NCBI GenBank assembly: GCA_947396885.1
Contig: OX377203.1
Coordinates: 8,603,298-8,667,297 of the forward strand
Source of the DNA: Heligmosomoides polygyrus polygyrus
Taxonomy: Eukaryota; Nematoda; Chromadorea; Rhabditida; Heligmosomidae
DNA: 64,000 bases
Direction of reading: 5' to 3'
Part shown: positions 1,887-61,625 of the stretch, in pieces
How the letters are laid out: every line of letters begins with the position of its first letter
Numbering within the stretch: position 1 is the first letter of the stretch
The notes under the pieces: generated by a model
Told to the model about the DNA's origin: nothing
What the model saw: the letters and a program-made list of their open reading frames with translations, nothing else
Database searches by the model: none
Translations under genes and position numbers: made by a program

Positions 1887-2164
1887 CAAATTCAAGCCTT
1901 TGTGATAGTCGATTATGTAGTAATCTTGCCAATCTCCTGATGTATGCTTTTCACAATTAACTGAAAACAAAACCTCCTTACTGGGGAGGTTATTTCTTGT
2001 TTCAGATATACGATAGTTTTTACTTACCGCTGCCAGGCCACGGGAAGGCGTTAGCTGAGAAGACCAGCGACACCTGACGATGTACAGAAAATCCAAGAAC
2101 ATAGAGAACGAAGCTATGCTATAAGCAAGACTAAGGATGTACTCACCACGAAGAAACTAAGCAT
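1887..2164 (-). CDS. gene A: small secreted-protein family member, exons 1-3 (partial)
   Basis: Three exons follow the family pattern on the minus strand: exon 1 at 2164-2147 (18 nt, MLSFFV), exon 2 at 2073-2028 (46 nt, hydrophobic, phase 0 to 1) and exon 3 at 1960-1887 (74 nt). Donors are GTGAGT, GTAAGT and GTGAGT; acceptors are CAG. Exon 3 holds NCEKHTSGDWQ and ends in YHKGLNL, matching the other copies. A TATAAA at 2205-2200 precedes the start. Exons 4-6 were not found and may lie beyond the window. The longer open frame at 1686-2102 simply reads through the donor of exon 3 and is not the gene. Function unknown; a secreted product is inferred from exons 1-2. Confidence 0.65.
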
Positions 2165-2495
2165 TCTGTGGATAATGCCTAGCCCTAGTATGAGCAGCCT
2201 TTATATGTAGTGTAGGTTCGAAGAGCGACAGCTTTCTTTGTCCTGCATTCTGTTTATCAGACTTCATGAGTACGACCACTGTTGGAATACGTGCCGTCGG
2301 ATAAATCCGCTTTCGTGCTTCTGTACGTTTTCCCATTATTACGAAAACTACGAAGGACAAACGCAGGATGTCGACGTTGACAAAAGCCGCCAGTGTCACA
2401 CAGAACTTCAGCATTTGTGCTATATTTGAAGCATACAATGACAACGTAAATGCGTCGTCATTCACAGACACATCCGCATCCAATTTAATAGGGAT
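2165..2495. other. upstream region of gene A, no gene seen
   Basis: The segment upstream of gene A runs into the LINE target site. The 202-codon minus open frame at 2157-2765 crosses the LINE insertion boundary at 2511, so it is chance reading and not a gene. Confidence 0.5.
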
Positions 2496-3334: not shown

Positions 3335-3372
3335 CTAGGATAGATCCGGAAGTGGCTTCAAGGCCGTTACAT

Positions 3373-4142
3373 GTGGAAGTACCAGGACCACCAGTAGTGT
3401 CGGAATAATCGTCTCCGAACGATTTCCTGACTCGATTGTAAGCGTCGAACGCTTGGACGATCGATTGATGAAGATGGTTGTCGCCGCTAAGGAGCGACTC
3501 TATCACTTCTTCTTTGCGTATGCACCGCAGACTGGCTGCTCGGATCAAGCCAAGGAAGAGTTTTGGAGCCTGCTTGATGAGAAGACAGCAGTGGTATCGT
3601 CGAAAGATGTCATCATAGTCGCTGGTGACCTTAATGAGCACGTAGGTGCTCCGAAAGGCGGGAACAGCTGTCATGGTGGTTTCGGATACGGATCACGTAG
3701 CGCCGATGGTGGGAGCATTCTTGATTGCGCGGAATCGCATAACTTCACCATTGTGAACATTGTCTTCCGAAAACGCGACTCGCACCTTATCTCATACTAT
3801 GGTGGGAGTACTAAGAGTCAGATAGACTTTGTCCTTGTGAGTGATCGCGACCGGAGTCTTGTCACAGACGCTAAGATAGTGCCGTATGAGACGGTCGCCC
3901 CACAGCACCGACCGCTGATCTGCACTCTGAAGACCGCCCCTCCGAGGCTGAAGCAGGTCGAGTGCTGCGGTGCTGCAAGAGTCAAGTGGTGGCGAATGAG
4001 AGAGAAGGAAGCAGCTGTGATTTCTTGCGTGTGGTTACCGAAAGTCACGGCTGTAGACGAAACTTGGAAGAAGGCGACCGATGCGATTCGTCAAGCTGCA
4101 CAGTTGAACTCGGCATTACGAAGCCTGGGCGACGGAAGGTGA
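3373..4142 (+). pseudogene. RTE LINE endonuclease domain (C-terminal part)
   Basis: This is the open part of the apurinic/apyrimidinic-type endonuclease. GDLNEHVG is the catalytic Asp/Asn block. IDFVLVSDRD and the APQHRPLICTL histidine block follow in order. The domain's N-terminal part, with the LCAVQETR motif, lies left of the nested element at about 2790-2850. The frame ends at 4142, just before the local inverted duplication. Confidence 0.8.
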
Positions 4143-4177
4143 CACAGCACACAGCACAGTCCACAGCAGGCCTGGCT

Positions 4178-4275: not shown

Positions 4276-4278
4276 ACT

Positions 4279-6032: not shown

Positions 6033-6117
6033 CGTCATGACACCACAGTAGCGGACCCCGCCACGAAGCGGGACAAACGCTAAGAAGAACAAGAACAAGA
6101 AGAATGGGGGAAGCTTG

Positions 6118-6600: not shown

Positions 6601-6604
6601 TACC

Positions 6605-9275: not shown

Positions 9276-9277
9276 CA

Positions 9278-9413: not shown

Positions 9414-10454
9414 AACAACAGAGAAAGGCATCGTTCAAACAAGTCTCCATGCCCACACCCGCCAAACACCATCTCAATATTCATATAACCTAGAGGATTG
9501 CTCAAGTAGAAAATATTGCTACACTTATCAATCAATTATTCTGTCATCCTCAACAAGGGGTGTAGCACATGCATAAAATTGCTTGTCACGCGATTTACGT
9601 TCTGCTTTCTCACGCAAAAAAAATTCCTACGACATCGCATCAAGAAGCAACGAATTATTAGGTCGTTGCATATGAAGGCTGCGGCAGCGGCGTTGTGCCC
9701 AATTTTCCATTCATATAAGTAGAGCACCTGAATATCACGTTGATTCATACTGTAAAAACGATGTCAAAAACTCGGCGAGGTGCAGATATCTCACAAAAGC
9801 TATAAATGGTAAGGAACCGAAGATTCTGTACTTTCAGAAACTATGTATATACAGTGCGTAAAACAGGAACATCTGTAGCCACGAAAAGTCCGACCTGAAA
9901 TTGAGGCAGCAAAATCGGCCATCTCATATGCAACGACCTAGCACAGTTGGAATCCTGAGTGATACGAGGCTAATGTGATTCAAGTGAAATCCTCTCGTTT
10001 ATTTTTGACGTCTTACTCCCAATTAGTCATTCCATGGGCAGGAAAACCAGCCGTTTTTAAAGCAATTTTTGGTTTTAAAGACGAAGGAAAAGTGACACAT
10101 GTTGTTGCGTACGAGATACGACGCAGGGGTCTTCTTGAGGGGTTCTCCTCTGAAGGGTCTCTCTTCCTTACTAAGGAGTTTCAGAAAAGTCCTGTGCTTT
10201 CAAATTTGTTCACTGCTGATATCCGTCGAAGGGTAGGAGCGAAACGGGTAATGGTCCTTTTGTTTCTTCCGTTTTATGAGCATCAATAAAAAACGCAATT
10301 CTTGAAGTCGTTGTTTATTCAGAATGACCACCTTCATTCGACAAGAAACTGATACAACAGTAGAAGAAGATCACGTGCACTCCTGCCCATTCGTCTTACT
10401 GAAAGTTTTAGAAGTTTTGCAAGAAATTCGAAACAAATAAAACGTATTGGAATA
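9414..10454. other. 3' flank of gene B; unexplained open frame
   Basis: Mostly AT-rich. A 104-codon plus frame at 9975-10289 has no motif I recognise and converges on gene B, so it may be chance. AATAAA on the minus strand at 10319-10314 is a plausible polyadenylation signal for gene B, in the same GAATAAA context as genes C and F. Confidence 0.4.
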
Positions 10455-13400
10455 TTACCGGTAGAGGCATACAAGTCTGTAATAGGAGTAGAGGGTAAGG
10501 TCGCTATAAATGTGTTTGAGAGCAGAGCATCCGTATCTTGTTCGCGGGTGCTTTTGCGCGGTTGTTTTATCTGGAATGTACGGACGTGAGTTTGCAGATG
10601 CAGGAATCTTCCTGAAAATATAAAGAGTTACCATGTCTTTTGGCATCTGTGAGAAAAGATAGTTGAGGTGCTTCTTATGGAAAGTGGTGTCGGCGTACCA
10701 CCTTAAAAAAGGACTGCAGAGCAATACGTGAAAGGCATAAAGTCAGCGCTGAGAAGTGGATAGCGGTGGAAATTTGAGAGCATCTCGCACCCGTGATGGA
10801 CACGTGAACCCATGATGTGAGTAAATTGGATCCGAAATTTCGTAAAGCATGAATCATAATTACAAAAAAACCTTTAAGCCTTAAATCGTAAATCATAAGA
10901 GATATCTGATTTCTAATGACATAGATTAGAATAAAAAATAGGGAATAGATTCTTTTGTTAGTACATCAATCTTCTACAATATGTGTTAAGTAGATCCCCC
11001 TTTCTATCTGGTTTGTACTCATTCCTTGCCTGATTTCCTCTATCCTCGGACAAGCCTTCGTACGATGACTCGTTTCTGTAACCGAGGATAACGCTGACTA
11101 CTGGCTGATCTGTGGCTTGAGCTTTCACCATGTATCTATCAGTAGCTCACCACCTTCGGTCTGCCGTCTCGGCATAATTAGGCCAGCTGTGCAGAATCAG
11201 AATTTGTATCTTCCTGTCGTTTCTCCAGTTACCCCTCAGGTTGCCTTCTTCAGTTGTCTGCCCGATATTTTCGTCTATTTTCTTCATTTATTCGTTCCTG
11301 TAAAATACAAAGCTATTAAAAATAAAGTTTAATTGCCTAAGTTTGGAGTGTATGAGCCCAAGAGGCTAATAACGGTAGTTCAAACTTGGTTCCGTGCGAA
11401 ACTAAAAGACCCGCTTGGCATTATCAAATGTTAGTATAAATGGCACCATATTCTACGCTTCCCTGCTAATGGTAACTAAGACAACCCGATATTTATTTTT
11501 ACAATGTTATTTTCAGCTTAAGCTGATTAGATTTTTTAGCCAGATGGATACCTATCAGTTTAGTTAAATACGTTCCAAACCAAGCTCGACACTTTTTGAG
11601 AAAGCTTGAAAATTCTTGAGTTAAAAACTTTAGCCTATACAAATTGTTGGGATAGTGACCAGATAAATAGTACAATCTTAAAGTTCGCGTCCTTTTAGAT
11701 AGCTTTTAGCTTGCATGCACATCCATTTTAGCAGAACTATCGAACAAGACACTGTTTAAGCCATGGATGAATATAAATATTTATTTATTGAATATTTATT
11801 TAACCGCTGACCAACTCGTCGTAAGCAACATTTGCTCCAGTAATCCAACAAATACCGCATATTAGCTGAGCTTTTTCTCTCTTGGATTTCGAAATATTCC
11901 CAAAAATATTCCCGTGCTACAGATGGTTGAAACCGTACAGTGTGTTTTTGGACATCCTGTGCAATAGAATTATGTTGTTGTTTTTTCAAGTAAATGGAAG
12001 CAAATGGTGTGATATTCTTAAGCGATTTGGAGGGCGCTGACTATGACTTGTTAGAATTCAAAAGTTTTGTTAAGGGTCAGGCACACTTCGCTGCCCCTGC
12101 TGCGGCAGCAATGGTTACGGATAGTATCGACATGCTGACTCTTTTGCCGCGCAGCAATCTGCCGCAGCATAGCCGCACCTGTGAGCACGCTTTGCTGCGG
12201 CGGCGGGGCCTTTTTGCCGCAACAACAAGAATTGTCGAACGAAAGCCGCTAAAAAGCGCGCACTGCTGTTTGCTGCGCCCATCCTTTGCGAAAGTAGTGT
12301 GCACCCTCTTTCGCTTCTCAAGCAGGGTTTGTGGCCACAGCAAAGTGTGCTCGAGCCTTTAGACTTAAGGTTTGCGAACACATTTGCGGCAAGCGTCGGG
12401 CGGCGAGTAGCAAAACTCGTGGAACGCGCCACCCACACACATTCAAGTATTGCTACGGCTAGCAGCACGGGCAGTGTACTCTACCTAGTCGAGACCTACA
12501 GCTGCTATTCGCTTTTCTTCCTTTTGTCTGTGTTCTAGCCGATGCCTACCGAGGTCGGCTAGAGCGCAGACAGAACGTTGCGGCTGCAATAATTATGTAA
12601 ATCATCCCTCGCTTGCCGCCGGCGGCGAGCTCAGCGTTCCCGCCCTATGGTTAAGGATACGTCGCTTTGCCACAAAAGTGTGTGGAGGCCTTTAGACATT
12701 GTAGGAAATGGCAAGGTGCTATGAGAGGACACTCTAAAACTCGTCCTTATAAATCAAGTCGTGTCATGTCATGTATACCTCCGTTGCTGTCGGATCAAGG
12801 ATGACATTTATGAAAATGTTATCAATTTTTATTTAACATTAATTAATTATATTTCTACCGCAGGAAAAGAAATGTGAAGAAAGGCGTAAGGTCGGTCGTC
12901 GCCCTATTGGTCGTTTCATTAGAGTGCCTGCTAACGGTAAAAAAAAAGTTCGGAGCCTACTGCTGAGTGTAATTAACATAGTTCACAGCGAATGAAATGA
13001 ATATGTATGAAAATTCTCACGTCTGCCTGGAGTATTTGCAGTAAGTCGTTGAATTGGTATGAAGAGGTGGTTCAGTGTAGTCAATCAGATCGTGCCTTGC
13101 CGTTGCAACTGCTTCCCCAAGAATGTTGCAGTCCAACGTCTGCAAATTAAGCTGAACCTTTAACTCTTTAAAAACATCACTTCAAGGAGCTTCTAATCGG
13201 GCCAATATGAAGGTACGTCCTCCAAAACTACTTCTGAGAATCAATCTTCCATGGCTAATTTTCCATAATTTTAATGGAGGCGTTGTGAAGAAGCGGTGTT
13301 GTTTTTGCAAAGATATGGTTGGCTGGGTGGAATTCGTTTCAGGACCAGATTCTAGGGATAAAGAGCGGAAGTTCTAGAAGCCAGTTATTCTTTTTTACAG

Positions 13401-15174
13401 ATGAAACCCATATTGCATCCATCATCGTTTGCGCGTGTAGCGCTGTAGGACTTCGTGTTCGCTGACGATAGTGCTATCTTTGCAGACACTGATGCAGAGG
13501 CAAGGGATAAAGGATAAAAAGGATTTTTTAAAGGATATTCTTCGAGAAATCGCCGCTATTGCTCTTCCATACGGATTAACTATAGGCGCTGAAAAGACAA
13601 AGGCGCTCGCAACCGATGGCTCACCATGCACACTCTTCTTGGACAACTCACAGATCGAACGAGTCGCGGAGTTTAAGTACCTCGGCTCTATAGTGCAGCA
13701 GAACAAAGTCTCATGCACCACGAAAATCCACAGCAGAATTGGCAAGGCTGCGATGACCTTCGGCTCACTAACCTGGTGTCTATGGAGTAGACAAACGTGT
13801 CGCTCGCAACAAAAATGCGCGTATTTCGATCCACTGTAATGCCAGTATTGCTTTATGGTGCGGAAACATGGAAACTTCTAAAAGCAGATTTGCAGAACCT
13901 TGATGTCTTCCACATGAGGTGCCTCAGACGTACACTAAACGTCTCAATTCGTGATCGGATTAAAAAACAACAAGTCCTGCTGCAGCAAGACCACTGTCGG
14001 ATGCGAAATCCGTACACGCAGGCTACGGTGGTTTGGACATGTAAGTCGAATGGCAGCTCAACGAATACCCAACAAATTGCTGCGAAGAATCAGACCGAGT
14101 GAATGGAGTCCAGGAGGAAGTCCAGCGAGCTGCACCAAAGAAGAAGTGGATAAAACAAATACAAGACGACTTGAGTAAACGAGGATTGTGTTTAGAGCGC
14201 GGAAGTGAAATGCTCTGGATCGTCTGGCATGGCAAAACTTTGTCCGTGACCCTCACCACTCCATGGCACCCACAGCGATGTTATTGGCTACGAGGACGCC
14301 CTCAAACCTGACGCCCGCTAATGGGGAGTAAGTAAGTAAGCGCTGTAGAAGGATGTGCCGGCTGTCGCGTGCACCCGATACCATGTTGCTGGATCGGATT
14401 TCCCGCCCATGATAACCAAGCCTTCCATCGCTTTGGGGTCGGTGAATTGCTGTCAGACTTGTCTTGGACGGATCTTCATCGGCTGGCCACCGCAAGTCAT
14501 TGCATGACCAAATATGCATTCAAATCGCCACCATGGCATCACGTAGAAGTAAAATACGTATCTAAAATGAATTGAGTAACACCATCCTTTATCCTTTATC
14601 CTTTTTACTCACAGCCACTGAACCTCTCCATTTCTTCTCCTCTCCATTTTCTACGCACATATAAATGCTAACGGAGATCGTTCTATTAGCCGGATCCCTC
14701 CCTTTTCCGAGCTCTTAAACTAACATTTTTAAACAAAAAAAATCGGAATATTGAGCTCGGTGACACCTAATCCGTTCTATGCATGTCGCGAATTTTTTCA
14801 TAAAGTGCTTTAAGCCAAAGCGCAGATCGTGTCTACATTGTGCCCAGCTCCCCTAGCCAAATTTTCCAATCCCAGTAAATCTGGTCTTTACCCGGTCTCG
14901 TTAAGCCAAAACTTACTAGATTCATGTCCTTGTGGAACTCTTCTATAATTGGAATTTGCCAATCTCCTGTTGGGCCACATGTTGCTGAAACCGATCATTT
15001 TTGCTAAGGGCGTCATTGTTGCTTGAATCGCTGCTTCTAAATACTTACTACTGGATACTGTATTGACGTTTGACCAGAGGATCAATAGTATCTGAAAAAT
15101 TAATACGTAGCGTAAAAAATTAAAACCTTTGAAAAATCTCTAAAACATTGACTGACAGTGAGGATGCAGCGCAT
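10455..15174 (-). CDS. gene B: small secreted-protein family member, six exons, frame problem in exon 6
   Basis: Minus-strand exons are 15174-15157 (18 nt, MRCILT), 15091-15049 (43), 14984-14917 (68), 13139-13021 (119), 10701-10632 (70) and 10570-10455 (116). Phases are 0,1,0,2,0. Exon 1 uses a GTCAGT donor. Exons 1-2 form a signal peptide (ILLILWSNVNT). Exon 3 carries CGPTGDWQIP and ends FHKDMNL. Exon 4 carries TLDCNILGEAV and the sequon in HTNSTTYCKYSRQ. Exon 5 ends SQMPKDM. Exon 6 has TRYGCSALK and ends VCLYR then TAA. Exon 6 is one base short for the spliced frame, whereas reading through the 61-nt intron 5 keeps it open. Five mature cysteines, like gene E. Intron 3 holds a LINE fragment. 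Function unknown. Confidence 0.75.
10902..12069. other. intron 4 of gene B, AT-rich, no feature recognised
   Basis: Mostly unique AT-rich sequence without inverted ends or coding motifs. Open frames at 11117-11332 and 11756-11989 show no homology I can name. Confidence 0.4.
12073..12358. repeat. Harbinger-like MITE (TTA target)
   Basis: TTA flanks at 12070-12072 and 12359-12361. The ends are AGGGTCAGGCACACTTCGCTG on the left and, as reverse complement, AGGCTCGAGCACACTTTGCTG on the right. The interior is GC-rich and palindromic, and the overlapping frames on both strands are therefore spurious. A related single end, with CCACAAAAGTGTGTGGAGGC, lies at 12655-12698. Confidence 0.65.
13395..14340 (+). 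pseudogene. 5'-truncated LINE, reverse-transcriptase C-terminal half
   Basis: The catalytic FADD is at 13458-13469. It is followed by GLTIGAEKTKALATDG, AEFKYLGSIVQQ, VLLYGAETWKLL and RRLRWFGHVSRM in successive frames, ending with a TAAG tandem tail at 14329-14340. It was inserted antisense in intron 3 of gene B. This is a different LINE family from the 2.5-6.1 kb copy, judged by motif wording and tail. Frameshifts at about 13500, 13800 and 14000 make it inactive. Confidence 0.8.
14341..14916. other. intron 3 of gene B beyond the LINE, no feature recognised
   Basis: No coding or inverted-repeat structure was recognised. A CCTTTATCCTTTATCC microrepeat lies at about 14585. Confidence 0.4.
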
Positions 15175-24748: not shown

Positions 24749-24874
24749 CGATAGCTGTCCAATCAGCGAAGTGTTCGATCTTCTTCAGAAACGACTTAGC
24801 ATTTTTTTCCATTTGCTCTTCTAAAATGTAAGGAGTTGAAGTCATTATTACATCATCAAACGTTTCGTATTCTA

Positions 24875-27800
24875 TTACGGGTAGAGGCATATCAGCTTGA
24901 AGTCTCTCCAAATCCATCTTAGGCGAGAATAAGCATAGCATCCATAGCGTGTTGCACCATGCCGTTTCACCTCTTCCACTATCTGAAGTGACACGAAGCA
25001 GAGTGAACGAATTTTTGCAAGCTTAATAACAAAAAGCAACCTTATCTTTTGGCATTCCCTTATATAATAAAGTCATAAGGTCGTCCGTGAAAAGCGCTCG
25101 TAGCCTGAAAATGTGAGCTTGAAGAAGCGCAACAAGGAGTGAAGGCCTCAGCACACTTTGGCAGCGAGGCAGGGAGCTGCGGGCGGTAAAACGGGCAGCT
25201 CATGCAGAAATGAATACGGAACGTCACTGAAATTCTTGAAAGCGGCAAGCGGCAGAGAGCGGGAGCAGGGAAGCACCGCACTCCTTGCATTCGGGACGTA
25301 TTGCCGCTGCGGGAAATTTAAAATTTGACTCAGCCTAGGGACTAAGTGATCGAGAGAGCTTAACCCATTGACGACAGCGCGGGTCGATTTCGACCCGCAG
25401 TTTTTCTGTGACCGCGCGGGCCGTTCGCGGTTATAAAACTGTTCGCTACGGCCCATTTCTCGCTTTGCACATAGTTTACGAGTAATCATTAGATATGTTG
25501 GATCCTAGCAACTGTGACTACTGCACTGTGATCCGGCAGTCATTTGCTTCTAAGCACTAATCAAAACAAATAATCTGCACCACACACTATTCAAGCTGCA
25601 CAAAGATCGGCACTATTCACAAACAGCTACTCACGTCTTGTAAAATTGGTCATGCAGAAAAATAACTAGTCACATTTCTTATAAAAATTTTGAAAACAAT
25701 CTGGACAAAAGTATAATATGTCAAACACCTGCTACATCATGTGGTTACCTTATCTGCATGATTCGTGGAAAATGTGCTCCCTTTTTCTTTGCAGACTTCC
25801 TTGCAGCAGCAAATACATATTTTATGGTTTGCTTCAAACCTGTCCCGTCCTTCTCCAATATGTCGCTAATCCTTGAAGAGGGAGATTCGTTTGGAATATC
25901 GTGAAGTAGTGTTTCCGCGAGATTCCGGCGTCCGAGCGGTCCCAGCGCGCTGCTGTCCCACGCGCCAGACACGCGACTTGCATCGCGGTCGTCGACGGGT
26001 TAGGCCCCGTTTATACTTCGTCGCGGCGCGACGCCACGCATAGTGGCCATAAGGCCCATGCACACTTCTGCGACAGCGCGGCGCGGCCATGATGAAGCAT
26101 AGGGCCGGGACGGCCGCGGCGCGACACTGCGACACGTGCCGCAGGGAGGGGGCATGCACACTCTTGCGGCTGTCGTGGCGGCTATCGCAGGCGACCCCGC
26201 CTTGTGCCGCAGGCTGGAATGGTTCAAACCATTCCTCGAGGCGCGGCATCCACGGGGACCTCGGTCCCGTCGCCTAAAACGGTGCTCTAACTTGTCCGCG
26301 CCGCGACCGCCGGATTTCGCGGAGGTAGCTGTCGCCCCACTTGCCGCGCCGCGGTGTCGCAGAAGTGTGCATGGGCCTATATTGATTGTGCGACGCGATC
26401 GATCAATTTGGCCTCACTGCATGGCCATCGCGTCGCGCCGCGATGAAGTATAAACGGGGCCTTAAAGAATGCGTCCGTTTCCACTCTAGATCCCAGCCAC
26501 GATCGACTGAAGGCAACAGAACCCTGGCAGCTTGTGTGAATCATTATTGCCGCTTCCGCACTTGCTGCGCCGCAGTCGCTGCAGCCGTCCAAAATCGTGC
26601 TGCAGGAGTGTGGGTGAGGGACGTTCTGCCTGCAAGCGGCGCGGGCAAAGACGCGGGACAGTGCCTGCGGAGTCAATTAGTGTCGACTCGCGCCGTAACA
26701 TCCGCCGCTTCGCGCTTAGGGGTCGTTTATTGTGCGCGCGAAGCGCGACGCGATGCACGTGTAGGGGCCAAATTGGTCGTCGCGCGTCACATGCACACTA
26801 ATCGACCCCTTAGCCAGACAGCCCTCTCCGTGAATGCGATGGTGACCCAGCCAACCACGGCAGCCTGTAGGTCGACCAGATTTGGTGTGATTACAATCGA
26901 TAGAGGGATATGAGGTCCAGACGGCTTGCATTGGCAGTCCAGAAATTGGGATTGATCTGAACCCTACCATCTCCTATATCAGAATTTCAAGCTCTATCAA
27001 ATTATCCAGGAAAGAATCTTGCCTCAATAATCCCTACAGCAATTTTTTAGGCGCTGTTTAAGTTTTGTTAAATATCAGTTTTTATTTATATTAGAATTAA
27101 ATACGAGGCATGCTTCCAGCCTACTGACGTGAACTCTATCATTTCCTGCATTATATCCTGTCTAAATAACCCTTGTGGCGACTTTCTAGGCGTCGTTTAT
27201 TTTCGCTAAATATCAGTTTTGTTTATACCAGGATTAATTGCGGGCATGCTTCCATACTACAGATGTAAACATCAGTAGTACGGAATCATGCCCGCAATTA
27301 ATCCAGGTATAAATCACTACCATCTCTTATACTAGAATTTCGAGCTCTACCGAATGATCCAGAGAAGAACCGTGTCCCAATAACCCTCACAGCGAGTTTT
27401 TTAAGGCTCTGCTTATTTTCGCTGAATGTTGGTTTTTATACTCATATATCATATAATTAAATTCGAGACACTATATCAGAATTAAATTTGCTTCCAGGCT
27501 AAAATTGCACAAGGACTCCAACTGGATAGACGAGAGATTTTTTAAAAGAAGTTTAAAGCGTTGGTTTCAACGTGACACCTTTTATCATTTTGTAACTGAT
27601 TTTTCTATGGAACTTTATAATGCACACATCACATATTTCAAGACAAAGACTGGACAGGGGCTTCATCGATTCTAATGTTCACCAAGAGTGAATTTCACCA
27701 CACAGTCCTCATATGGCTCGTCCAGTCGTCTGAGGCTTCTAGCAGGTTTTTGACCTCGCGTCCCACAGGCAATGTACCTGCATAGCCAATGTCAGGTCCA

Positions 27801-35099: not shown

Positions 35100-35530
35100 T
35101 GATGAATTCGGCTCTAGGTCGGTTTGAACAATTTTAATTTGAAGATGTTTTAGGAGCAGGTGCTGAAAGTAGTAAAAGAATGAGCACTTTGAGCACTTTT
35201 TAGTGCTCGTTCCTGTTCGACGTTCTATAATTAAGGGACAGTAAACGTTTAGAAGCTCGTTCGTTTTTTTTTTCAGTTTCGTTTGAAAAATACGAAAAGC
35301 GGTGATGAGAAAATGTTTGGGGATACTGTCACGTCGTCTCAAACATTTAGAATTTTGTGTAAATGCACACTCTACGTTAACATTGCGTGTTGAGTCCACT
35401 AATTTGAACAACCCTCCAATTTTTTCTCGATGTGGAAAGAAACATTATTACGAACGTAGTGAGGTGTTATCTCGGCTATAGCTACAACATTTAAAAGCTG
35501 CTTAGACTACAGTCAGCCGTCGTCATGAAG
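35100..35530 (+). promoter_or_regulatory. upstream block of pseudogene D
   Basis: Homologous along about 430 bp to the region before F (54860-55236) and, inverted, before C. It includes the core TTTAAAAGCTGCTTAGACTA at about 35490-35509. Confidence 0.6.
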
Positions 35531-35867
35531 ATGCAAAAGTTCGACATTGTAAGTCTACTTCCGTTTTTTCTGTTTTCGCAAACCGCTCCTGTTATTCCCA
35601 CTTGGCTTATAGAACTCTTTTAGGTGTTGTGTTTCTTGGGAAGCTTCGCTCTACAGATATTCGGACGTAAGTGATGTCATTAAGTTTTTCACACCTAATG
35701 GTGTTGTGTTTACAAAAAAAAGCTATTTCTAGAAACTTGCTAGTCAATAAAAATCATTGTTTAAAACAATGTAATTTATTGGAAATGGTGTTTGTAGATT
35801 CGAAATATAGGAAGGGTGGTGAATGGCAAGTTGATATTATTTAGAACTTCTATAAATGCATAAATCA
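35531..35867 (+). pseudogene. pseudogene D: exons 1-3 of the secreted-protein family
   Basis: Exon 1 is 35531-35548 (MQKFDI; an extra ATG sits 6 nt upstream), exon 2 is 35624-35666 (43 nt, VLCFLGSFALQIFG) and exon 3 starts at 35798 after TTTGTAG. Exon 3 aligns as KGGEWQVDII, but a TAG stop occurs at 35842-35844, the expected cysteine codon is TAT, and the donor at about 35867 is lost. Exons 4-6 were not found. The upstream block and first two exons remain intact, so a truncated transcript is possible. Confidence 0.75.
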
Positions 35868-37660: not shown

Positions 37661-37663
37661 AAT

Positions 37664-41162: not shown

Positions 41163-43286
41163 AAGACTGCGGTCCATCAGGAAATTGGCAAATCCCAGAA
41201 ATGGAAAACTTTCACAGAGGCATGAATATGGTAAGCGCAAAAATAGACGCAATCAAGGAGAGTCATAAAGAAAAGGCATTCTTTATCTGAAATGATAAAC
41301 ACTATTGCCTTACCTGTGTGCAAACCAATCAGGACTTCACTATTTAAAGTGCCGTTGCTTACGCATAAACGACAAAAGCCATTGCTTAGTTGTAAGTTGG
41401 GGTCACAAAAGCAGAATGTGATGATCCTTTCATAATCCTGCATACTACGCTTGAATTCCTGCACCTGGCTTAAGTCCTTGTTTTGACTAGAAACTAGAGT
41501 GGCAATCAGGGTCTTTTCTAAACAGATATTTAAACAATGAAGGAAAGGCTTTGCAACAGAGAATCTCACGAAATATGGGACGCAAGAATAGACTCCTGCA
41601 AGATTTTTTCGCCCAATAATTGCTTCGTTGAACATACATGACTTACAGACATTGGATTGTGGCACTGTTGGAGTAGCTGTTGACGCTGCGTACAAGGAAT
41701 TGGTAGACTATAACGGCCCCAAGTACTACACCAATTCTACGAAATTCTGTAGATATTCAAGGCAGTCGTGAGTTTTTCTACACAATTTCTCACGTTATTC
41801 TATTGAAAAACTAATTTGTCCCGGAATTAATTTGTTTATTTATTTGTTTCTGTACGATGCGTAAGGCAACGTGATATAGGGTGCAGTACGATAAAAAAAA
41901 CACTACAATAACACGAAAATATAAGCACTTAAAAATTATAGATGCAAAAGATTGTTCCCATTCCTACTATTAAGCAGACGTAATCCTGGACTTCAAGGCT
42001 TCAATAGCTCTAGATTTCACGCCTACAGGGTGCGTAAAAAGTATTGACGCACTAAGCGTAAACGTTAGAAATAACAACACATCATAAAATTTAACAAGTT
42101 TATATGCAAAATGTCAACTATGATCTAGCGAACAAAATAGCATCACTTGCATTTTCAATGGGCTTCTTTGCTGCGAATGCAGGGGCGAAGACGGCGAGGA
42201 AAGGAATCGACGGTGCGCCGCAATTAGTCCACGTCGATTTCGTTCCATGCTTCAACCTTCACTGACTTGATACTTTTGTGCATTCAACATGTAAATGTGT
42301 TACATACTCTTCGAGGACCTCCAAAGTGGTGATTCTGACGGAGGGCTCGCAGCAAGGAAGGCGCATTCTGCCAGTATCATGGTTTGTGCATTTATCACTA
42401 GCGCCTCTCGTTGTCGTGCATACAGGAGTGAAGATAAAGCAGTAGAACTATTTGTATTGATGTCCTAAAAAAGCAGCTGGTTTTTTGGCTCAAATCCCAC
42501 CTCGAGAGTAAGCCGTATGTCTTCCAGCAGGATTAGACTCCTGCGCAGAGTCGAAGATTGCTCAGGACTGGTGCCGCGCCAAGTTGAAGGACTTCATTTC
42601 GGCAGAGAAATAACCTCTGTATAGACCGGATTTGAATCCGCTGAATTACTCCATATGGAAAGATTTGGAGAACAAGGCTTTCACTACTTTCCACAAAAGT
42701 ATGAAGTCAGTGAAGGATGATCTGATCAAAGTATGGAACGAAATCGACGTGGACTACCTGCGGCGCACCGTCGATGCCTTTCCTCGTCGTCTTCGCCCCT
42801 GCATTCGCAGCAAAGAAGCCCATATGGAATACAAGTGGTGCTGTTCTGTGCGCTAGATCATTGTTGACGTTTTGTATATTAACTTGTTAAATTTTATAAT
42901 GTGCTGTTATTTCTAACGTTTACGCTTAGTGCGTCAATACTTTTTACGCACCCTGTATACATGCCGGGCAGCAGTCTTGAGGTTGAAAAGAGCTGCGTTC
43001 ATGTAATTCGTCTTTCAATTTTCTTTTTAAGATGGTGGAGAAGCTTCGACGAGTTTAACTATAAACAGGTCAACTACCTTTTCAACCTGATGCCGAAAAG
43101 CATGGTGATCATTTACAATCGGAGGTATCATGATGCATTTGCATAGGCCTAAATTCACACAATTTCCAGATCGAGAAAACAGCTAAGAAGCATCATCCTA
43201 CGAAATACGGATGTTCCGCGGTTAGATACAAGTACAGCCGACACAGTTTCTATTATTACGTTCGACTACTGTGCCTTTACTGGTAA
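41163..43286 (+). CDS. gene E: secreted-protein family member, exons 3-6
   Basis: Plus-strand exons are 41163-41230 (68 nt), 41649-41767 (119), 43032-43104 (73) and 43170-43286 (117, ending in TAA). Lengths and phases match gene B where comparable. Exon 3 has DCGPSGNWQIP and FHRGMNM. Exon 4 has TLDCGTVGVAVDAAYKEL and a sequon in YTNSTKFCRYSRQ. Exon 5 has WWRSFDEFNYKQVNYLFNLM. Exon 6 has TKYGCSAVRYKYS and ends LLCLYW. Five cysteines. Exons 1-2 were not found; a transposon sits at 40096-41012. Exons 3-6 are open throughout, so this is either a gene with unrecognised first exons or a recent loss. A second transposon fills intron 4. Confidence 0.7.
42026..42955 (+). mobile_element. Tc1/mariner foldback element with arms of about 280 bp (930 bp)
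   Basis: TA flanks at 42024-42025 and 42956-42957. The ends CAGGGTGCGTAAAAAGTATT and AATACTTTTTACGCACCCTG extend into arms 42026-42300 and 42665-42955 that are reverse complements over nearly their whole length. The right arm encodes NPLNYSIWKDLENKAFTTFH and VDYLRRTVDAFPRRLRPC, a transposase C-terminus. The left arm is an inverted copy of it. In intron 4 of gene E. Confidence 0.8.
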
Positions 43287-43770
43287 TACACATGTATTTG
43301 TACTGCTAGTCACTTCTTAGTGCGCTAATTTTCAGGAAGACAAACGGACAAGACTGCGTGTGAGGTCTTGATTGGAAGCAGCAAGTCACTTCAAAGAAAT
43401 CTTCTAGAATAAATTTTTTGAAGCATCCTGTTGTGGTGTAATTAAAGAGAATGGGATTTTGAAAGAGCGGTTCCGTGAAACAGAAATGAATCAACTAGGC
43501 GTCAATAACTTTTTGACAGCGATCTCAATTTTCTGTGTAACAATGCGCCTAACTTCCGATCGTATCAGGTCAGCAAAGGAGACCAGCACGACCCCACTGG
43601 CCAGGTAGCAGCCGTTCTCAAAGGTGACAGATATCAAGCAACTGCCAGTGCACACACAAATTAAACGTGTTGTTGACGAAGTACACTGATAATTGTCTTC
43701 TTACCTAAAGAAGGACCTAAAGCGTATGACTGAGCTAAGAAATTGAGTCATATGAAAGAATCTACACATT
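43287..43770. other. 3' flank of gene E, no gene recognised
   Basis: AATAAA at about 43408 on the plus strand could end the transcript. Nothing else supported. Confidence 0.4.
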
Positions 43771-50997: not shown

Positions 50998-51471
50998 CCG
51001 CTGCCAGAGCTCTGTATGCAATCAGCTTAATGTTGGCATTTGCCTTTGAAATTTAGTGCTTTTACTGTTTCATGCTTGCCTTTATGCTTTTTTTTGCTTG
51101 AAGAAGTGTGCTGGCAATAACGCAGAGCTTGCTATAGTATGGAAACGGACGCATTCTTTAAGCTCGATCAATCAGCTGAGTCCCTAGGCTGAGTCAAATT
51201 TTAAGTTTCCCACAGCGGCAGTACGAATGCAGAGTGCGGTGCTTCACTGCTTTCGCTCACTGCTGCTTGCCGCCTTCAAAAATTGCCGTGACATTCCGAA
51301 TTCATTTCTACATGAGCTGCCAGTTTCACCGCCCGCTGCCCGCTACCTCGCAGGAATAAATGTGCGGACGCCTTTACTCAGGCTGCTCTTCTTCAACCTC
51401 ACACTTTCAGGCAACGAACGCTTTTCACAGACGACATTATAAGAATATGATATGAGAGAATGTCGAAACAG
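50998..51471 (+). pseudogene. relic G: intron 4 and exon 5 of the secreted-protein family
   Basis: Sequence 51000-51410 matches intron 4 of genes C and F, including TGGAAACGGACGCATTCTTT and CTAGGCTGAGTCAAATTTTAA. Exon 5 (51411-51471) follows TTTTCAG and reads QRTLFTDDIIRI, then a TGA stop at 51448-51450. It is 61 nt instead of 64. No exon 4 or 6 was found near it. The open frame at 51227-51442 is intron reading, as in the other two copies. Confidence 0.7.
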
Positions 51472-51899
51472 GTAGTTTTTTGCTAAAAAAGAACTGCATC
51501 ACATCCTAACTAAGCGCCTTTGTGCGAAGCGTAAAAGAGTATTTTTTTGAAAGAAGTCCATATATTTTATAACGGCAGGTACTAGCAAACCTTTTGTATA
51601 TGCCTGCAACATAATTTCGGTTTGAAACATTTCGAATAAGAAGTAAAGTTGTGTACGTATTTATGGCTTGCCCTGTGGCTGCTCCGTTCTTATGAACCAA
51701 GCCAGACACCTCCGTTTATTTATTTTGAACATTCTACAGAAGGTGCGCTCGGACGAAAAGCATTGCCATTCAACTTGACAAGGCCATGTATCTTTCAATT
51801 ACTGCGGTTTTTCTGCACTCTGCAAAAATAAGAAAATTAATTCATCACAATCCTCTTTCATCGGCATTACAGTACACTGCGTTAAACATGCACCTGGTG

Positions 51900-54859: not shown

Positions 54860-55236
54860 CGAAAGGTCTGTTTGAACAATGTCAATTCGAAGATATTGTA
54901 TCGATGCTGCTCGGAAAGTAATAAAAAAGAAAGGAACACTTTTTTGCGCTAGTGCATTTTTGACTTTCTATAATGAAGAAAAAAAGTAAAGTTTGGAGGA
55001 TATGTCAAAGGCAGTGATGGGAAAATATTTGAGGACACTTTCATGTCGGCGTCAAACATTTGGAATTTTTGTGCACTCTACGTTAAGATTGCATGTTGAA
55101 GCTAGTAATTTGAACAGCACGCTAATTCATTTGTGATGAGGAAAGAAGCATTATTAAGCACGTAGCGCGGTGCTTTCCGGGCTATAGCCACAGCATTTAA
55201 AAGCTGCTCCGACTACCGTCAGCCATCGTCATCAAG
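54860..55236 (+). promoter_or_regulatory. upstream block and core promoter of gene F
   Basis: Homologous along its length to 35100-35530 (gene D) and, inverted, to the region before gene C. Core TTTAAAAGCTGC at 55196-55207, 30 nt before the start codon; GACTACCGTCAGCCATCGTC follows. Confidence 0.6.
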
Positions 55237-58200
55237 ATGCAAAAGCTCTGCATTGTGAGTCTGCTTTCGTTTCATCTGCCTTCACAAACCGCTCCTGCTA
55301 TTTCTACTTGGCTTATAGAGCTTCTTTAGGCGCTGTTGTTCTTGGGAAGTGTCGTTCTGCAGACATATGGACGTAAGTGCTGTGATAAAGCTTTCCTCAG
55401 ATATAATGTGGCTGTACTTAGGCAGTCGAAAAAATGCGATTTCTGGAAACTTGCTAGTCAATGAAAAATCTCTGCTCAAATCTATGTAATTTATTGAAAA
55501 TTGTGTTTGTAGGGGAATGCTGGAGTAGAGATCCATGGAAATATAACTATATGGTGAGGTACCACAAAGGCATGAATTTGGTAAGCTGTTTTGCAGTAAT
55601 TGTAAAATACTAACCATAAGTTGAAATAGAATTTCATCGTTTTTAGGCTTTATTCTTAATTTCGCTTTTTTCAAAAGTTTTTTGAAGTTTTTTTGTATAC
55701 TGTTTTATACATTTGAAAAGGGATAACTTGCTTTATCAGAATTGTGTTTCGATTTTTTCTCGACTTGATCATTTTTAGCGGAATCTTGGCAGCGGAAAAA
55801 AAAATGGCATTTAACAACAGCTCCTTCTCCTTTCACATTCCGTTAAAAACCGGTAACAATCGAAATGGGAAAAAACGAAATATACATTTGGATAGAACGA
55901 AATATTTTTTGCAAGGATGGACAACATTCTTCAAAAAACTTAAACAAAGGTTAGGAGCTGTTGACAAAAATAACTCGTGGTTTTTGGACACTCCAATTCA
56001 ATAGCCTAAGAAATTATAGAAATCAAAAATAATGAAAATACCCAACAAAAATTCTTGTAAAGTAAATCGTATTCTATTAATGACTTATAACTTTGCGCAA
56101 AAAAACTCAAACATAGGTAGAGAGAAGGAGCAGTGGGCTAAGATGTTTTTGTTTTTCCACTTTAACGACCTAAAAATTGACAAATTGAGGAAATCGCAAT
56201 TCATACCTTGTTATAGAGCAAATCACTCTGTCTTAAAGTCCTGTAAAGTGTTTATATTGATCAGTAGGCAGACCAGTAGGACGGAATATGTGTCGCAGAC
56301 ATGGCATTTCCCATGCGTTGGGCCTCAGCAGATGTGTCACTGACATTATGCAGCATGCGTCCGGATTCAGAAGACGTGGCACGGACGTCGTACAACGAGC
56401 GATGGATTTTCAGATGACCATTTAAGGGATTCGTGTAACGAGCTCTCTAGCATATTAGTGGAGGCTAGGGGAGGGGAATAGGGCGATTGACCACAGAAAT
56501 TGAAGGAGTAATACTGCCGTCGGATAGTAAACGATATTGACCGGTTGACCAATATCGATTAATTTACTTTATGTTTTTGCAGATTAAGCACTTCGGATTA
56601 AGTCTCTCACAGTCTGTTCTTTGCTGCGTAGAGAATGGGTGCTTTGGAGAACAAATAAATCGAGCAGGCACCATAGGAACAGTCCTAAAGTTTTCCTTCC
56701 CCAGTATATCCGCTATACCGGGTGTCTCGGAAAAAATGCATATACTGTTTGAAGGGTGATAACTTTGTTCATAGAAAGGTACTAAAGAAGTTGAAGGCTC
56801 GTATGAAAGCATGAGAAAATAGAAATTTTCTGACGCATGACACAAGTGGAATGCTCCATGCACTCGTCTGAAATTTTGCATTTTCACTCAATTGTGTTTC
56901 GCTTGAATACTTGTCATAATTTTTTGACAAAGTGGTCCTATCAATTGATTTGTGTGTATTTTAACGTTTAAAACTTAAAACACATTACTGCTTGCGAAAA
57001 GTGCAGTTTAACCTAAAAATGCAGGTAGTATTTGAAAGTTTATAACATCGCTGCTAGTGAAGCATTTTAAGATGTTTTAGACTCATTTGAAAGCGCACGG
57101 TAAGGAGATTACTGTGGCGTGCGAATAGTCATTAGACACATTCCAAGCCGTTCATGTGTCGTAAAGTTTCTGTTCTCCTAAGCTTTCTTATGCGTCCCTA
57201 ACTTCTCCAGTAAGTACCCTGCGAACAAAGTTATCACCTTTCAAACAGTGTGTACATTTTTCTGACCAGGATACTATCTCAACGGTAGGTCGGAACGGCG
57301 CTAGTTGTATATGGTCAGAACCGCCTCTCCCTGGGAAGTAACAAACTGCAGGTATCTCGACTCCAATGCAACTCCGCGCAGAGTTAGGGGCGAAGGAAGT
57401 CGCGTGTTGGCGCCATGTTGATTCACGCGCTCCGCAGCTGACGGGCGCGCACAGGATGAGGGCTCGTATCGCGGCTCAGCGCAGTGCATAGGTGGCGTAG
57501 TAGGGAAGAGCTCATGCTCATGAGCGAGGTGTCGAGGGTTTGGATCCTGTCGTGACGTTCGCCACGCTCCATCACGACTCTTCCAGGGTACACACGCTGG
57601 GAGGCGCACTGGTCCCGCTGCGCAAGGCATACGGTCGCGCGCACACGCCGCGACGCACTATGAACGCCTTCCCGCGCGCACCCGGCAGTCTTCGGCTTCG
57701 TCGTCGCTCCGAGCGGTCGGTCCGCTCTCCGCTCCGGCACTCCATCGTCAGCGCAGTGTCCACACCATCCGGACTTCGACTCGACAGGCCGCGCAGGACT
57801 CCAGGACGACCAGGACAGGACGCGCAGAGACGACTACAGAGGTAACCGCAGAGACCGACCGAGCTACCGCCCTCGTGAGCGTAGGCTCCAGGGTAGGAGC
57901 GAGGAAGGAGCTGCGGCTTGCGCTTGGGGCTGACCCGTAGGTAAGCTGGCGGGGCTTAGCCTTGACTCGTAGGCTTTGTGTTCCATATTGATGTATATTG
58001 TCTGTATGTTGGGTTGATATGAAGTATAATGTCTGATGCGCACTGTCATGTAACTCGAGAGCGGGGGAAGGTTTATTCTGAGTGCAGTGGCAATACTGCA
58101 GAAGGTCGGCTGGTTCAATTGTATCATGCGAGTGATGTGAAGATGGACGGGAGTCGCCGGGGAGCCAGTGCAGGTGCAGACTGCTCAGGAGATCCTAAAT

Positions 58201-61200
58201 AACATCCGCATTGGTATGAGGTGTGCTAAGTCGGGGCAATAAGGGCCACACCCTTACGTGGCAGGTTAGGTAAGAGCTAGCGCGCATAGGTAAGACCTCG
58301 ACACCGGTTGTGCCTCACACGTGGCCTCGGGTTGAGGGCCGCATGAGTTCTACCACCGATGCAGCAGACTCACCCAGGGCACGACAGATCCCGCAGACTG
58401 CGTTTGTTTTGAACTTTTGCGAAATCCATGTTTATCATATAGGTAATCCACCTAGGGGTATTATAGTGTGTTATAGAGCATGTTTACATATAACATACCA
58501 CCCACACCGTTAACAAGGGTGGTCCAGGCAGGATCACCGATTCCCCATAAACTTTGTCTAAGGGGTTATTTGGGGTGCTGATCACGAATCTGATATCCGT
58601 TCTTCACGATTCGGCTGGATAATATGGGTTCAGGAAGGTACAGGATTACATTCTTAAAGTTTTTGCCGGTGAGGCAGGTAGAGGCAGAATCGTGAAAAAC
58701 GGATGTCAGATTCGTGATCAGCACCCCAAATAACCCCACTAAACGAAGTTTCAGCGGACATTTCTTTTGACCGAAGTCTTGTCGGTGGAGTCGGAACTTC
58801 TAACTAGTGCCACAAAAAATCTATCGTTACATAACTACGGTCACACAAAATAGGCTTCAAACAAGTGACACAGAAGTGAACATTTTAGCTAATCTGTAGT
58901 TTGAAGCATATGTTATATGTAAACATGCTCTATAACACACTATAGTACCCCTAGGTAGATTACCTATACGATAAACATGGATTCTGCAAAAGTGCAAAAG
59001 AAACGCAGTCTGCGGGATCCAAACCCTCGACCCCTCGCTCACGAGCCCGAGCGTATCCCTACTACTCCACCTGTGCACTGCGCCGAGCCGCGATACGAGC
59101 CCTCATCCCGCGCGCGCCCGTCAGCTGTGGAGCACGTGAATCAACAGGGCGCCAACACGCGACTTCAGTCGCCCCTAACTCTGCGCAGAGTTGTATTGGG
59201 GTCGAGATACCTGCAGAGTTTGTTACTTCCCAGAGAGAGGCGGTTCTGCCCATATACAACACTTACGCCGTTCCGACCTACCGTTGAGATAGTATCCTGG
59301 TGAGACGCCCTGTACTATTCTACATATTAGCAGTACTTTACTACAATGAAGGCAAGAAGGATTAAAGAAGAAAAAAAGCTTCCGAGGTGTTCCATTCTTG
59401 GGGCACTTGGGCGAAGCCCCCAAACAGAAGTTTTGCGACTGACAGGCCGCTGAACGTCTGGTAAAGGTTATGAGCTGTTAGCTAAATCCTTAGTTGCGAA
59501 CAAAACTCTTGCGCCAAACCGGCCTAATTCCCACACCTGATTCCTGTTGTAAGGATTCACGATGAGGGGACAACGACTCCACCCTTTGGCACATATTACG
59601 GAATAATAGTGCATACACTATTGCATCCGGCACGCCTTCACAACATCATGTAGAGCTAGGATGTGGGACGCATTACTGATGAAGACCTCATTTTTTATCT
59701 AACAGCAACCAATGACTTCCTCGCACATCAATTTTTACAGACAGAGAACTGTGACATAATCAGTGATGCCGAGAAGGCAGCAAAGAGAGAAGTTTGGGAT
59801 CCAAAGCCGGAAATGTGCACTGTCGATAGAAAGAAATACTGCCGATTCACATCGACGATCTGGTGAGCTCGCCATATTCATTCCTTCTTCCACGGTATCA
59901 CAAGGTGGTCTGCGATAAAATGACTGTGGTTAATACGCCAAGGAGCTGAAAGTTGGCATTTACCTTTGATATTTGATGCTTTTACTGTTTGATGCTTGCC
60001 TTTACGCTTTTTTGCTTGAAGAAGTGTGCTGGCAATGACGCAGAGCTTGCTACCGGCTGCGATCTCTGGGACAGTACCAGTGCATACTTCTGCAACGCGA
60101 TTTTGGACGGCTACGGCGATTGCGGCACCGCAAGAGCGGCAGCGGCAATAATGACTCACACCCGCTGCTAGAGCTCTGTCTTCCTCCAGCCGATCGCGGC
60201 AGTGATCTATTGTGGAAACGGACGCATTCTTTAAGCTCGACCGATCAGCTGAGTTTCTAGGCTGAGTCGGATTTTAGCACATTGACGACAGTCGCGTTTT
60301 GCAGCAGAAAGCCGCATCAGACACACGCGAATTTCTACGCGCGCGCTATGAGCCACCGGTGGCTCATAATGTCCCTCGCGGACCACTTTTCATGCTTTTT
60401 TTCTATCAAATTTTGACCAGAAGGGTTATTTAGGGTACTGATCAGGAATCTGATATCCGTTTATGAAATTTCGCCCGATTACGATAGGCTGTGGTAGGCA
60501 CGGGTGACTAAGGCTGCCGAGGTCATGATCACTGTTTTCCTCCAAACGTTCCCCAGGGGGGGGGGGTTATTTGGAGCTGCTGATCACGAATCTGACATCC
60601 GTTTTTAGTATTACGGTGGAGTACGGTAGGTTACAGTAGGTATAGGTTATTGCCGACAGCCTTAGTCACCCGTACCTACCGTAACCTATCCTAGTCCACT
60701 GTAATGCCAAAGACGGATGTCGGGTTCGTGATCTCCACCCAAAATAACCCCCATAGGCGAAGTTTGGGCGAAATCGGTGATCATGACTCCTAAGCCTTAG
60801 TCACCCGTACCTACCGTAATCGGCCCGAATTTCAAAAAAGGATGTCAGATTCGCGATCAGCACCCCAAATAACCTTATTGGGCAAAGTTTTATTGAGAAA
60901 CACTGACTTGGCTTGATTTGATTGTAGAGTTGGTCTCTTTCCTAGTAAAATTTTTTAGTTCGATATATCTAATGAGAGCAAAAACAATTTTCTTTCTTAT
61001 TCCTGTTGGACATTCTCTTACCACAGGTAACTAGGAAAGAGAAGAATTCTCTATAAAAAACCGACGGCAGCAGTACAAAAAATAACGCGAAAAGTTATGA
61101 GCCACCGTGGCTCATATTGCCCCAGGCGGACAGACACGTATGAGCCACCGGTGGCTCATATTGTCGTCAATGTGTTAAGTTTCCTGCAGCGGCAGTACGT

Positions 61201-61625
61201 CCCGAATGCCAAGAGCACGGTGCTTCGCTGCTTTCGCTCTCTGCTGCTTGCCGCCTTCAAAAATTGCCGCGACATTCCGCATTCCTTTCCTCATGAGCTG
61301 CCAGTTTCACCGTCCGCTGCCCGCTGCCTCGAAGGAAAAGTGTGCAGAGACCTTTACAATCGTTGCTCTTCTTCACGCTTACAATTTTAGGCAACGAGGA
61401 CTTTTCACGGACAGCCTTATGGAAAAGATATATGAGCGTCTGCCAAAAGAGAAGGTGGTTTTTTGCTATTAAGTTTACAAAACTTTGTTCATCTGCTTTG
61501 TCTCATTCCAGATCTTGGAGGAGGTGAAACGGCACGGTGCAAAGCGCTACGGATGCTTTGTTACTGATTATTTCCCATTTCCCTTTTTTCACAGAAACTT
61601 CGTGCTGATATGCCTCTATCCGTAA
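55237..61625 (+). CDS. gene F: complete six-exon small secreted protein, 142 residues
   Basis: Plus-strand exons are 55237-55254 (18 nt), 55330-55372 (43), 55513-55580 (68), 59741-59862 (122), 61391-61454 (64) and 61512-61625 (114), 429 nt in all. All introns are GT-AG with phases 0,1,0,2,0. Exons 1-2 give a signal peptide (MQKLCI, ALLFLGSVVLQTYG). The mature part has ECWSRDPWKYN and YHKGMNL (exon 3), ENCDIISDAEKAAKRE and MCTVDRKKYCRFTS (exon 4), LFTDSLMEKIYERLPKEK (exon 5), and EEVKRHGAKRYGC and NFVLICLYP (exon 6): six cysteines at the same places as gene C. Exon 4, 5 and 6 sizes point to the C subgroup. Intron 3 (4160 nt) holds foldback, MITE, R1 and LTR insertions; intron 4 holds a piggyBac-like element. 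Function unknown. Confidence 0.8.
55680..56260. repeat. diverged relative of the 49.2-kb palindrome (half copy)
   Basis: ACTTTAACGACCTAAAAATTGACAAATT and GGTAGAGAGAAGGAGCAGTG correspond to the arm of the 49163-50208 element. The open frames 55744-56004 and 56032-56343 resemble the frames in that element and share HFNDLKIDK. Not a host gene; lies in intron 3 of gene F. Confidence 0.5.
56712..57265. repeat. MITE with inverted ends of about 50 bp
   Basis: The left end CCGGGTGTCTCGGAAAAAAT continues into ATACTGTTTGAAGGGTGATA. The right end is its complement, with TATCACCTTTCAAACAGTGT and CATTTTTCTGACCAGG. The interior is AT-rich and non-coding. It abuts repeat R1. Confidence 0.6.
57266..58497 (+). 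repeat. repeat R1 with tRNA-like boxes, split by a solo LTR
   Basis: The left part, 57266-57547, ends in TGGCGTAGTAGG (A-box-like, near 57491) and GGTTTGGATCC (B-box-like). The right part, 58387-58497, resumes with GATCCCGCAGACTGCG and ends at ATATAACAT. The uninterrupted inverted copy at 58890-59310 shows the junction. Confidence 0.7.
57548..58386 (+). mobile_element. solo LTR with 5-bp target duplication GATCC (839 bp)
   Basis: It begins TGTCGTGACG and ends GCACGACA, flanked by GATCC at 57543-57547 and 58387-58391. The inverted R1 copy at about 59015 has the site without the insertion (TTTGGATCCCGCAG). The sequence is GC-rich, and frames in it on both strands are spurious. Start and target resemble the 17.4-kb solo LTR. 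Confidence 0.8.
58562..58737. repeat. MITE, TIR GGGGTTATTTGGGGTGCTGA
   Basis: GGGGTTATTTGGGGTGCTGA at the left and TCAGCACCCCAAATAACCCC at the right, with arms of about 45 bp including GATCACGAATCTGA. Relatives lie at 60418-60890 and near 18977. Confidence 0.85.
58890..59320 (-). repeat. repeat R1, uninterrupted copy with tRNA-like segment
   Basis: On the minus strand TGGAGTAGTAGG, an anticodon-like hairpin CGCTC/GAGCG and GGGTTTGGATCCCG follow in order. Both flanks belong to the repeat, and the end reads TACAGGGCGTCTCACCAGGA. Non-coding; in intron 3 of gene F. Confidence 0.7.
60278..61174. mobile_element. piggyBac-like insertion (TTAA target) in intron 4 of gene F
   Basis: The left flank is TTAG (60274-60277, altered TTAA) and the right flank TTAA (61175-61178). 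The ends CACATTGACGACAGTCGCG and ATTGTCGTCAATGTG are inverted and match the gene C insertion. Relic G has the uninterrupted site (GTCAAATTTTAAGTTTCC). Inside are MITE ends with GATCACGAATCTGACATCCG and the 18-bp palindrome TGAGCCACCGGTGGCTCA near both ends. Confidence 0.7.
60418..60890. repeat. cluster of MITE ends and a CCTACCGTAACCTA palindrome
   Basis: TTATTTGGGGTGCTGATCAC-type ends occur at 60424, 60566, 60710 (inverted) and 60845 (inverted). Between the middle pair, TACGGTAGGTTACAGTAGGT and ACCTACCGTAACCTATCC form an inverted repeat. It looks like two nested or tandem copies of the 58.56-kb MITE family. Confidence 0.65.

Follow-up and report, generated by a model that had tools for sequence, protein, structure and literature searches.

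A seven-exon family of predicted secreted proteins in a 64-kb stretch of the nematode Heligmosomoides polygyrus polygyrus

A stretch of 64,000 nucleotides from Heligmosomoides polygyrus polygyrus (contig OX377203.1, positions 8,603,298 to 8,667,297; hereafter the window) contains short exons with shared peptide motifs. Do these exons belong to a gene family and, if so, to which one? An earlier reading made without database searches (the sequence-only reading) had proposed seven loci of an unrecognised six-exon family of small secreted proteins. Exon profile searches confirmed seven loci (A to G) located on both strands, made of short exons and differing in integrity. To judge from its sequence, the cluster is a real family of predicted secreted proteins that none of the libraries searched labels, and its genes contain seven exons and not six.

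Loci and gene architecture

Gene models were obtained by reading the DNA with its splice sites, after the exon profiles had yielded the loci A to G. The exons are short (18 to 122 nucleotides; Table 1) and the six introns display the phases 0, 1, 0, 2, 0 and 2; the first five had been read correctly, except that locus B deviates at exon 6. The models also bear out the two-exon leader, the block W...H[KR]xxN[LM] in exon 3, the cysteines of exon 4 and the motif YGC...CLY in exon 6. In six-frame searches of the window, HKGMNL with at most two changes was found at ten places, and at five of them (1887, 14917, 31804, 41213 and 55563) the remainder of the exon-3 block surrounds it; YGC...CLY was found at four places.

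The assignment of the exons was evaluated by a leave-one-out procedure, in which a profile of each of the exons 3 to 6 was built from the remaining copies and the whole window was searched. The held-out copy ranked first among the non-training matches in 16 of the 17 tests and second in the last one, where exon 5 of locus E was outranked by the remnant G. Exons 3, 4 and 6 obtained 17.4 to 44.3 bits, against at most 8.9 bits in the reversed window. The scores of exon 5 are low (6.4 to 15.1 bits, with a best of 2.1 to 4.9 in the reversed window and one chance site of 7.0 within the window), and its assignment relies on place and phase. The 25 modelled introns are all bordered by GT and AG, with the acceptor consensus TTTTCAG. 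The lengths of the exons leave a constant remainder modulo three across all the copies having the exon, exon 6 of locus B excepted.

The six-exon count was wrong. At all four loci with exon 6, the TAA following CLY, which had been taken for the stop codon, sits inside the splice donor G/GTAATA (the slash marks the splice site), so that locus F ends at 61704 and not at 61625, and locus C at 24796. Exon 7 was found at each of these loci (B, C, E and F) after an intron of 53 to 60 nucleotides. It carries the frame on to the sequence [KR]-[AT]-[NE]-G-[KQ]-x-C-(x)-stop and contributes the last cysteine; in locus B its frame matches that of the exon-6 motif and not that of exon 5. A search of both strands of the window with this pattern recovered only those four sites, and none of 60 Markov-1 shuffles contained it; the count measures specificity and is not an independent prediction, the pattern having been composed after the four exons were known.

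Only C and F, two of the seven loci, are complete within the window. In locus B, exon 6 is outside the family frame after the modelled splicing, and intron 5 (10571-10631), when left unspliced, is open by eye and continues into exon 6 in the frame of the family; copy B is therefore either broken or otherwise spliced. No recognisable copy of exons 1 and 2 was found for locus E. Locus A is followed by repeat-rich sequence up to the edge of the window, before which its exons 4 to 7 were not found. Loci D and G are remnants.

Table 1. Positions of the loci, of their exons and of a possible core promoter in the window.
Locus	Feature	Position	Strand	Remark
A	locus	2164-1887	-	exons 1-3
A	exon 1	2147..2164	-
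A	exon 2	2028..2073	-
A	exon 3	1887..1960	-
B	locus	15174-10371	-	seven exons
B	exon 1	15157..15174	-
B	exon 2	15049..15091	-
B	exon 3	14917..14984	-
B	exon 4	13021..13139	-
B	exon 5	10632..10701	-
B	exon 6	10459..10570	-	family motif present, frame differs from that of the family
B	exon 7	10371..10398	-
C	locus	32146-24796	-	intact reading frame, 148 residues
C	exon 1	32129..32146	-
C	exon 2	32009..32051	-
C	exon 3	31804..31874	-
C	exon 4	30046..30167	-	discovered by a profile that excluded the copy of C
C	exon 5	25041..25104	-
C	exon 6	24879..24982	-
C	exon 7	24796..24820	-
D	locus	35525-35856	+	remnant, exons 1-2 and decayed exon 3
D	exon 1	35525..35548	+
D	exon 2	35624..35666	+
D	exon 3	35818..35856	+	decayed, in-frame stop
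E	locus	41163-43363	+	exons 3-7
E	exon 3	41163..41230	+
E	exon 4	41649..41767	+
E	exon 5	43032..43104	+
E	exon 6	43170..43282	+
E	exon 7	43336..43363	+
G	locus, exon 5	51412..51468	+	remnant, decayed exon 5 only, with stop
F	locus	55237-61704	+	intact reading frame, 149 residues
F	possible core promoter	55195..55236	+	by eye
F	exon 1	55237..55254	+
F	exon 2	55330..55372	+
F	exon 3	55513..55580	+
F	exon 4	59741..59862	+
F	exon 5	61391..61454	+
F	exon 6	61512..61621	+
F	exon 7	61680..61704	+

Comparison with known protein families

No Pfam family was detected at E ≤ 10 with F and C (seven exons), E (exons 3-7) or B (exons 1-5), nor with the first member or across five members of the six-exon alignment; the HMMER filters discard weak matches, so that very remote relationships may escape such scans. 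Pfam includes models of the secreted clade V proteins (SCVP) and of the strongylid L4 proteins (SL4P), and the hookworm family ASPR is presumably represented in Pfam-A by PF17641. In a protein collection whose sources include NCBI, UniRef and nr, the six-exon query of F gave 5 candidates, none at E ≤ 1, and the six-exon alignment 548 candidates, none at E ≤ 10; the search requires shared words of five residues and the absence is only suggestive. In the genome contig collection, 97 pattern matches were obtained and none was confirmed. No occurrence of HKGMNL or FHKGMN was found in the literature, where FHKDMN appeared once, in an unrelated paper.

The few matches that were obtained are attributed to chance. 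Retinol-binding protein 2 was retrieved from the PDB (E = 0.0097) by the query from locus E alone, the match being partial and not repeated across queries. The PDB profile search gave a ribosomal protein (E = 0.13) and histone deacetylases (E = 0.23), again partial and dependent on the query, and IlvX of NCBIfam (E = 0.73) was matched by one of six members. A viral contig, L001, reached 31.6 bits with F and 22.7 with C, compared with 23.9 for the best of 100 shuffles of F (98 of which had some match). This contig had been preselected from ten pattern matches by the exact word PKEKILEE and resembles a zinc-binding endonuclease by eye, and the similarity is considered a coincidence.

The sequence-only reading had guessed, from the YGC...C spacing alone, at a diverged relative of the CAP type. 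Neither the Pfam scans nor the profile comparisons support this guess. The six-exon profile gave 13 matches in the PDB at E ≤ 10, with no CAP chain among them. The alignment of the family with 15 CAP sequences by hhalign had a probability of 0.5% and an E value of 0.12, and its score was equalled by 6 of 60 column shuffles in local mode and by 37 of 53 in global mode. The CAP blocks GEN and HFTQVVW are missing, by eye against this alignment, from the consensus of the family. A CAP relationship is thus not supported, in a comparison where none of the 15 sequences is named as that of a nematode.

The same evidence bears on a more specific explanation, in which the family would be a far-diverged branch of ASPR and thereby of CAP, the middle of the CAP domain having been lost and YGC...CLYx[KR]xNG being the end of a shrunken fold. 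Size class, secretion and the GC...C-x-Y ending are similar by eye, and ASPR was itself defined as a cryptic secreted family linked to the ASPs only through psi-BLAST or iterative HMMER (PMC6497320). Against these similarities stand the absence of Pfam matches for the members scanned, of a CAP chain in the PDB and of any match in the protein collection, together with the hhalign value reached by one shuffle in ten, and we regard this descent as unlikely.

The likeness to ASPR is one of kind. The same paper counts 92 ASPR genes in A. ceylanicum and presents ASPR, SCVP and SL4P as gene families of that species set up by self-similarity (PMC6497320). ASPRs, or their InterPro family IPR035109, are listed among the secretions of adult hookworms, and ASPRs also among infection-induced genes, in three other studies (PMC7274458, PMC12193031, PMC9865600). 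The window family shares the ASPR combination of secretion (predicted, by leader hydropathy only), cysteines and multiple copies; it is also lineage-specific and outside the plain CAP model, but differs from ASPR in having no Pfam-A match at E ≤ 10, the two being compared through descriptions of ASPR and not sequences. With the CAP superfamily (PF00188; SCP/TAPS, ASPs, VALs) it has in common predicted secretion, a disulphide-bearing character and the ending noted above, whereas it has no profile match, lacks GEN and HFTQVVW, and is about 128 residues long in its mature form. SCVP and SL4P are likewise nematode families of unassigned function recognised by self-similarity; the window family differs in lacking a Pfam match, in a comparison again made from descriptions and not sequences. 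It resembles ASPR, SCVP and SL4P in so far as predicted secretion, cysteines, multicopy state and rapid change are concerned.

Constraint, duplication and genomic setting

The ratio of nonsynonymous to synonymous substitution rates (dN/dS) is 0.19 for exons 3 to 5 of B and E (bootstrap 0-0.45; synonymous sites close to saturation) and 0.65 for C and F (bootstrap 0.40-1.06), whose dS is about 0.46. Constraint is weak between C and F and clearer between B and E. A ratio near 1 across all copies had been named beforehand as an argument against the family; the B-E value is well below it, while the C-F interval includes it. The description as an unrecognised, spliced, cysteine-bearing family with a leader peptide and with copies decayed to varying degrees holds, but the adjective "young" is doubtful in view of the C-F dS and of the near saturation in B-E.

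In the 147 aligned codons of C and F no stop is present, where 4.6 on average would be expected under neutrality at their divergence (P = 0.0095 for none), and the amino-acid changes number 64 against a neutral expectation of 73.9 (P = 0.0085). Two copies at least look functional. An opposite explanation is that the cluster is a graveyard, in which each copy is unexpressed or died recently and decay has not yet reached the frames of C and F. It is opposed by these two results, by the splice sites of C and F, all intact, and by the dN/dS of B-E, although this last value possibly reflects past constraint; we consider it distinctly improbable.

Several observations nevertheless weigh against a functional secreted family, and some of them are those that a graveyard would leave. 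Only two of the seven loci are complete, and each of the other five lacks parts, is out of frame or is interrupted by the window edge. The neutral test was made on C and F because both are intact, a choice that biases the finding of no stop, and their dN/dS interval extends to 1.06. Their coding differences (117 of 441 bases) are nearly even by codon position (37, 39 and 41), and the divergence of the coding sequence is close to that of the promoter (identity 74%) and exceeds that of introns 1 and 2 (identity 79-80%). The proportion of nonsynonymous differences (pN) is well above that of synonymous ones (pS) in no C-F segment. Finally, leader hydropathy is the sole basis for the predicted secretion.

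The differences between C and F are unequally distributed along the protein. pN is 0.06 over the 15 codons ending with YGC, 0.46 over the next 16 alignment columns (the loop, where pS is 0.54) and 0.38 over the first half of exon 4. These stretches are short and, no segment having pN well above pS, diversifying selection is a possibility and not a result.

The similarity of C and F spans flanks, exons and pieces of introns, introns 3 and 4 holding unmatched sequence, a pattern that points to a segmental duplication followed by insertions. G lies in a segment (51201-51485) that is 80% identical to 61175-61468 of F. C and D are arranged head to head. About 42 nucleotides upstream of the ATG, ATTTAAAAGCTGCT is common by eye to C, D and F, and suggests a core promoter of the TATA type followed by a very short leader; ATATAAAGGCTGCTC at A resembles it by eye, and nothing similar was seen by eye upstream of B.

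Five of the 20 long reading frames scanned match element families in Pfam and the other 15 match nothing. Two frames on the minus strand (43853-44662 and 47023-47433) are of the mariner type Transposase_1 (E = 1.4e-25 and 3.3e-7). On the plus strand, 32790-33188 matches GIY-YIG and 37661-38272 is a look-alike frame with no Pfam match, both being perhaps Penelope-like elements; 3339-4139 has a weak endonuclease-reverse transcriptase match below the Pfam cut-off, and 52866-53303 matches DUF1759, which we take to indicate, perhaps, a retroelement of the BEL/Pao type. Intron 3 of F contains nested inverted repeats (57346-59216; 202 nucleotides at 90% and 111 at 94%). A minisatellite-like array occupies 464-1510, with a spacing of 42 nucleotides and longer periods; a reference repeat of 116 nucleotides has 10 of its 11 copies there and one at 56316. 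Upstream of exon 3 of E, 40300-40950 resembles 42024-42957 in intron 4 of the same locus (translated comparison), the latter stretch lying in an inverted repeat of 229 nucleotides. The sequence is transposase-like by eye and its frame 40547-40912 has no Pfam match. An insertion at this place may explain the missing exons 1 and 2 of E. No Rfam match at gathering thresholds and, with ARAGORN under the bacterial code, no tRNA were found in the window.

In such a setting, rich in element frames (Transposase_1, GIY-YIG, endonuclease-reverse transcriptase and DUF1759) and in inverted repeats, the family could itself be a protein carried by a transposable element. This is most improbable: the genes have six introns and a leader peptide, the named element frames are located between the loci and outside the exons, and the C-F blocks have no shared terminal repeats by eye, no dedicated search for them having been made.

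Predicted protein and its possible role

The product is predicted to be a basic secreted protein of about 15 kDa. The leaders of A, B, C, D and F have hydrophobic cores, with 12-residue hydropathy maxima of 2.1 to 2.8. Presuming a cleavage after the Gly at the end of exon 2, mature C would have 128 residues (15.1 kDa, isoelectric point 9.5, 15.6% aromatic residues) and mature F 129 residues (15.8 kDa, 9.2 and 15.5%), the mature product of E being similar in properties. Six cysteines are common to C, E, F and, so far as it is readable, B; E has six in total, an even count reached through exon 7, and C and F have seven each. At all four of these loci, a sequon N-[LM]-T is formed across the junction of exons 3 and 4. 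The conserved frame consists of W...H..N[LM]T.[DN]C, YC, MPK or LPK, YGC, CLY and the final C. The copies diverge strongly between these blocks, most of all between YGC and CLY.

With moderate confidence, we propose that the loci represent a multicopy and fast-changing nematode family, whose seven-exon genes would encode secreted proteins about 148 residues long, with a variable loop facing an outside partner. The role that we infer for it would be as follows. A secretory cell would express the gene from the TATA-type core promoter, with its very short leader; in the product, the signal peptide would be cleaved, the junction sequon glycosylated, and the cysteines would form up to three bridges. 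Once released, the protein would present its variable loop to a partner outside the cells of the worm, most likely of the host, of microbes or of prey. Segmental duplication in a transposon-rich stretch would make copies, and their subsequent decay would leave a changing pool of variants. More tentatively, the fold and the name may be absent from the libraries, annotation may miss seven exons of 18 to 122 nucleotides of which the last is hidden by an apparent stop, and the copies might be loop variants carried by a glycosylated, disulphide-bound frame.

The partner could also be internal. A secreted family serving the worm itself, in seminal fluid, cuticle or gut, would have no host-facing role, and its rapid change would reflect sexual conflict or weak constraint. 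The sequence facts fit this explanation equally well; nothing direct opposes it, and what favours the host side is that the ASPRs, to which the family comes closest by kind, are reported among hookworm secretions and infection-induced genes in the studies cited above. We hold a purely internal role to be doubtful.

If expressed, the genes of the window would be a further case of a lineage-specific family of secreted proteins, many of which are known from reports on hookworms, and gene callers could miss or truncate it. Other worms can be searched with the profile that the seven-exon model provides (six cysteines, the sequon and the final GxxC). The opposition between a fixed frame and a changing loop makes a role at the host interface testable.

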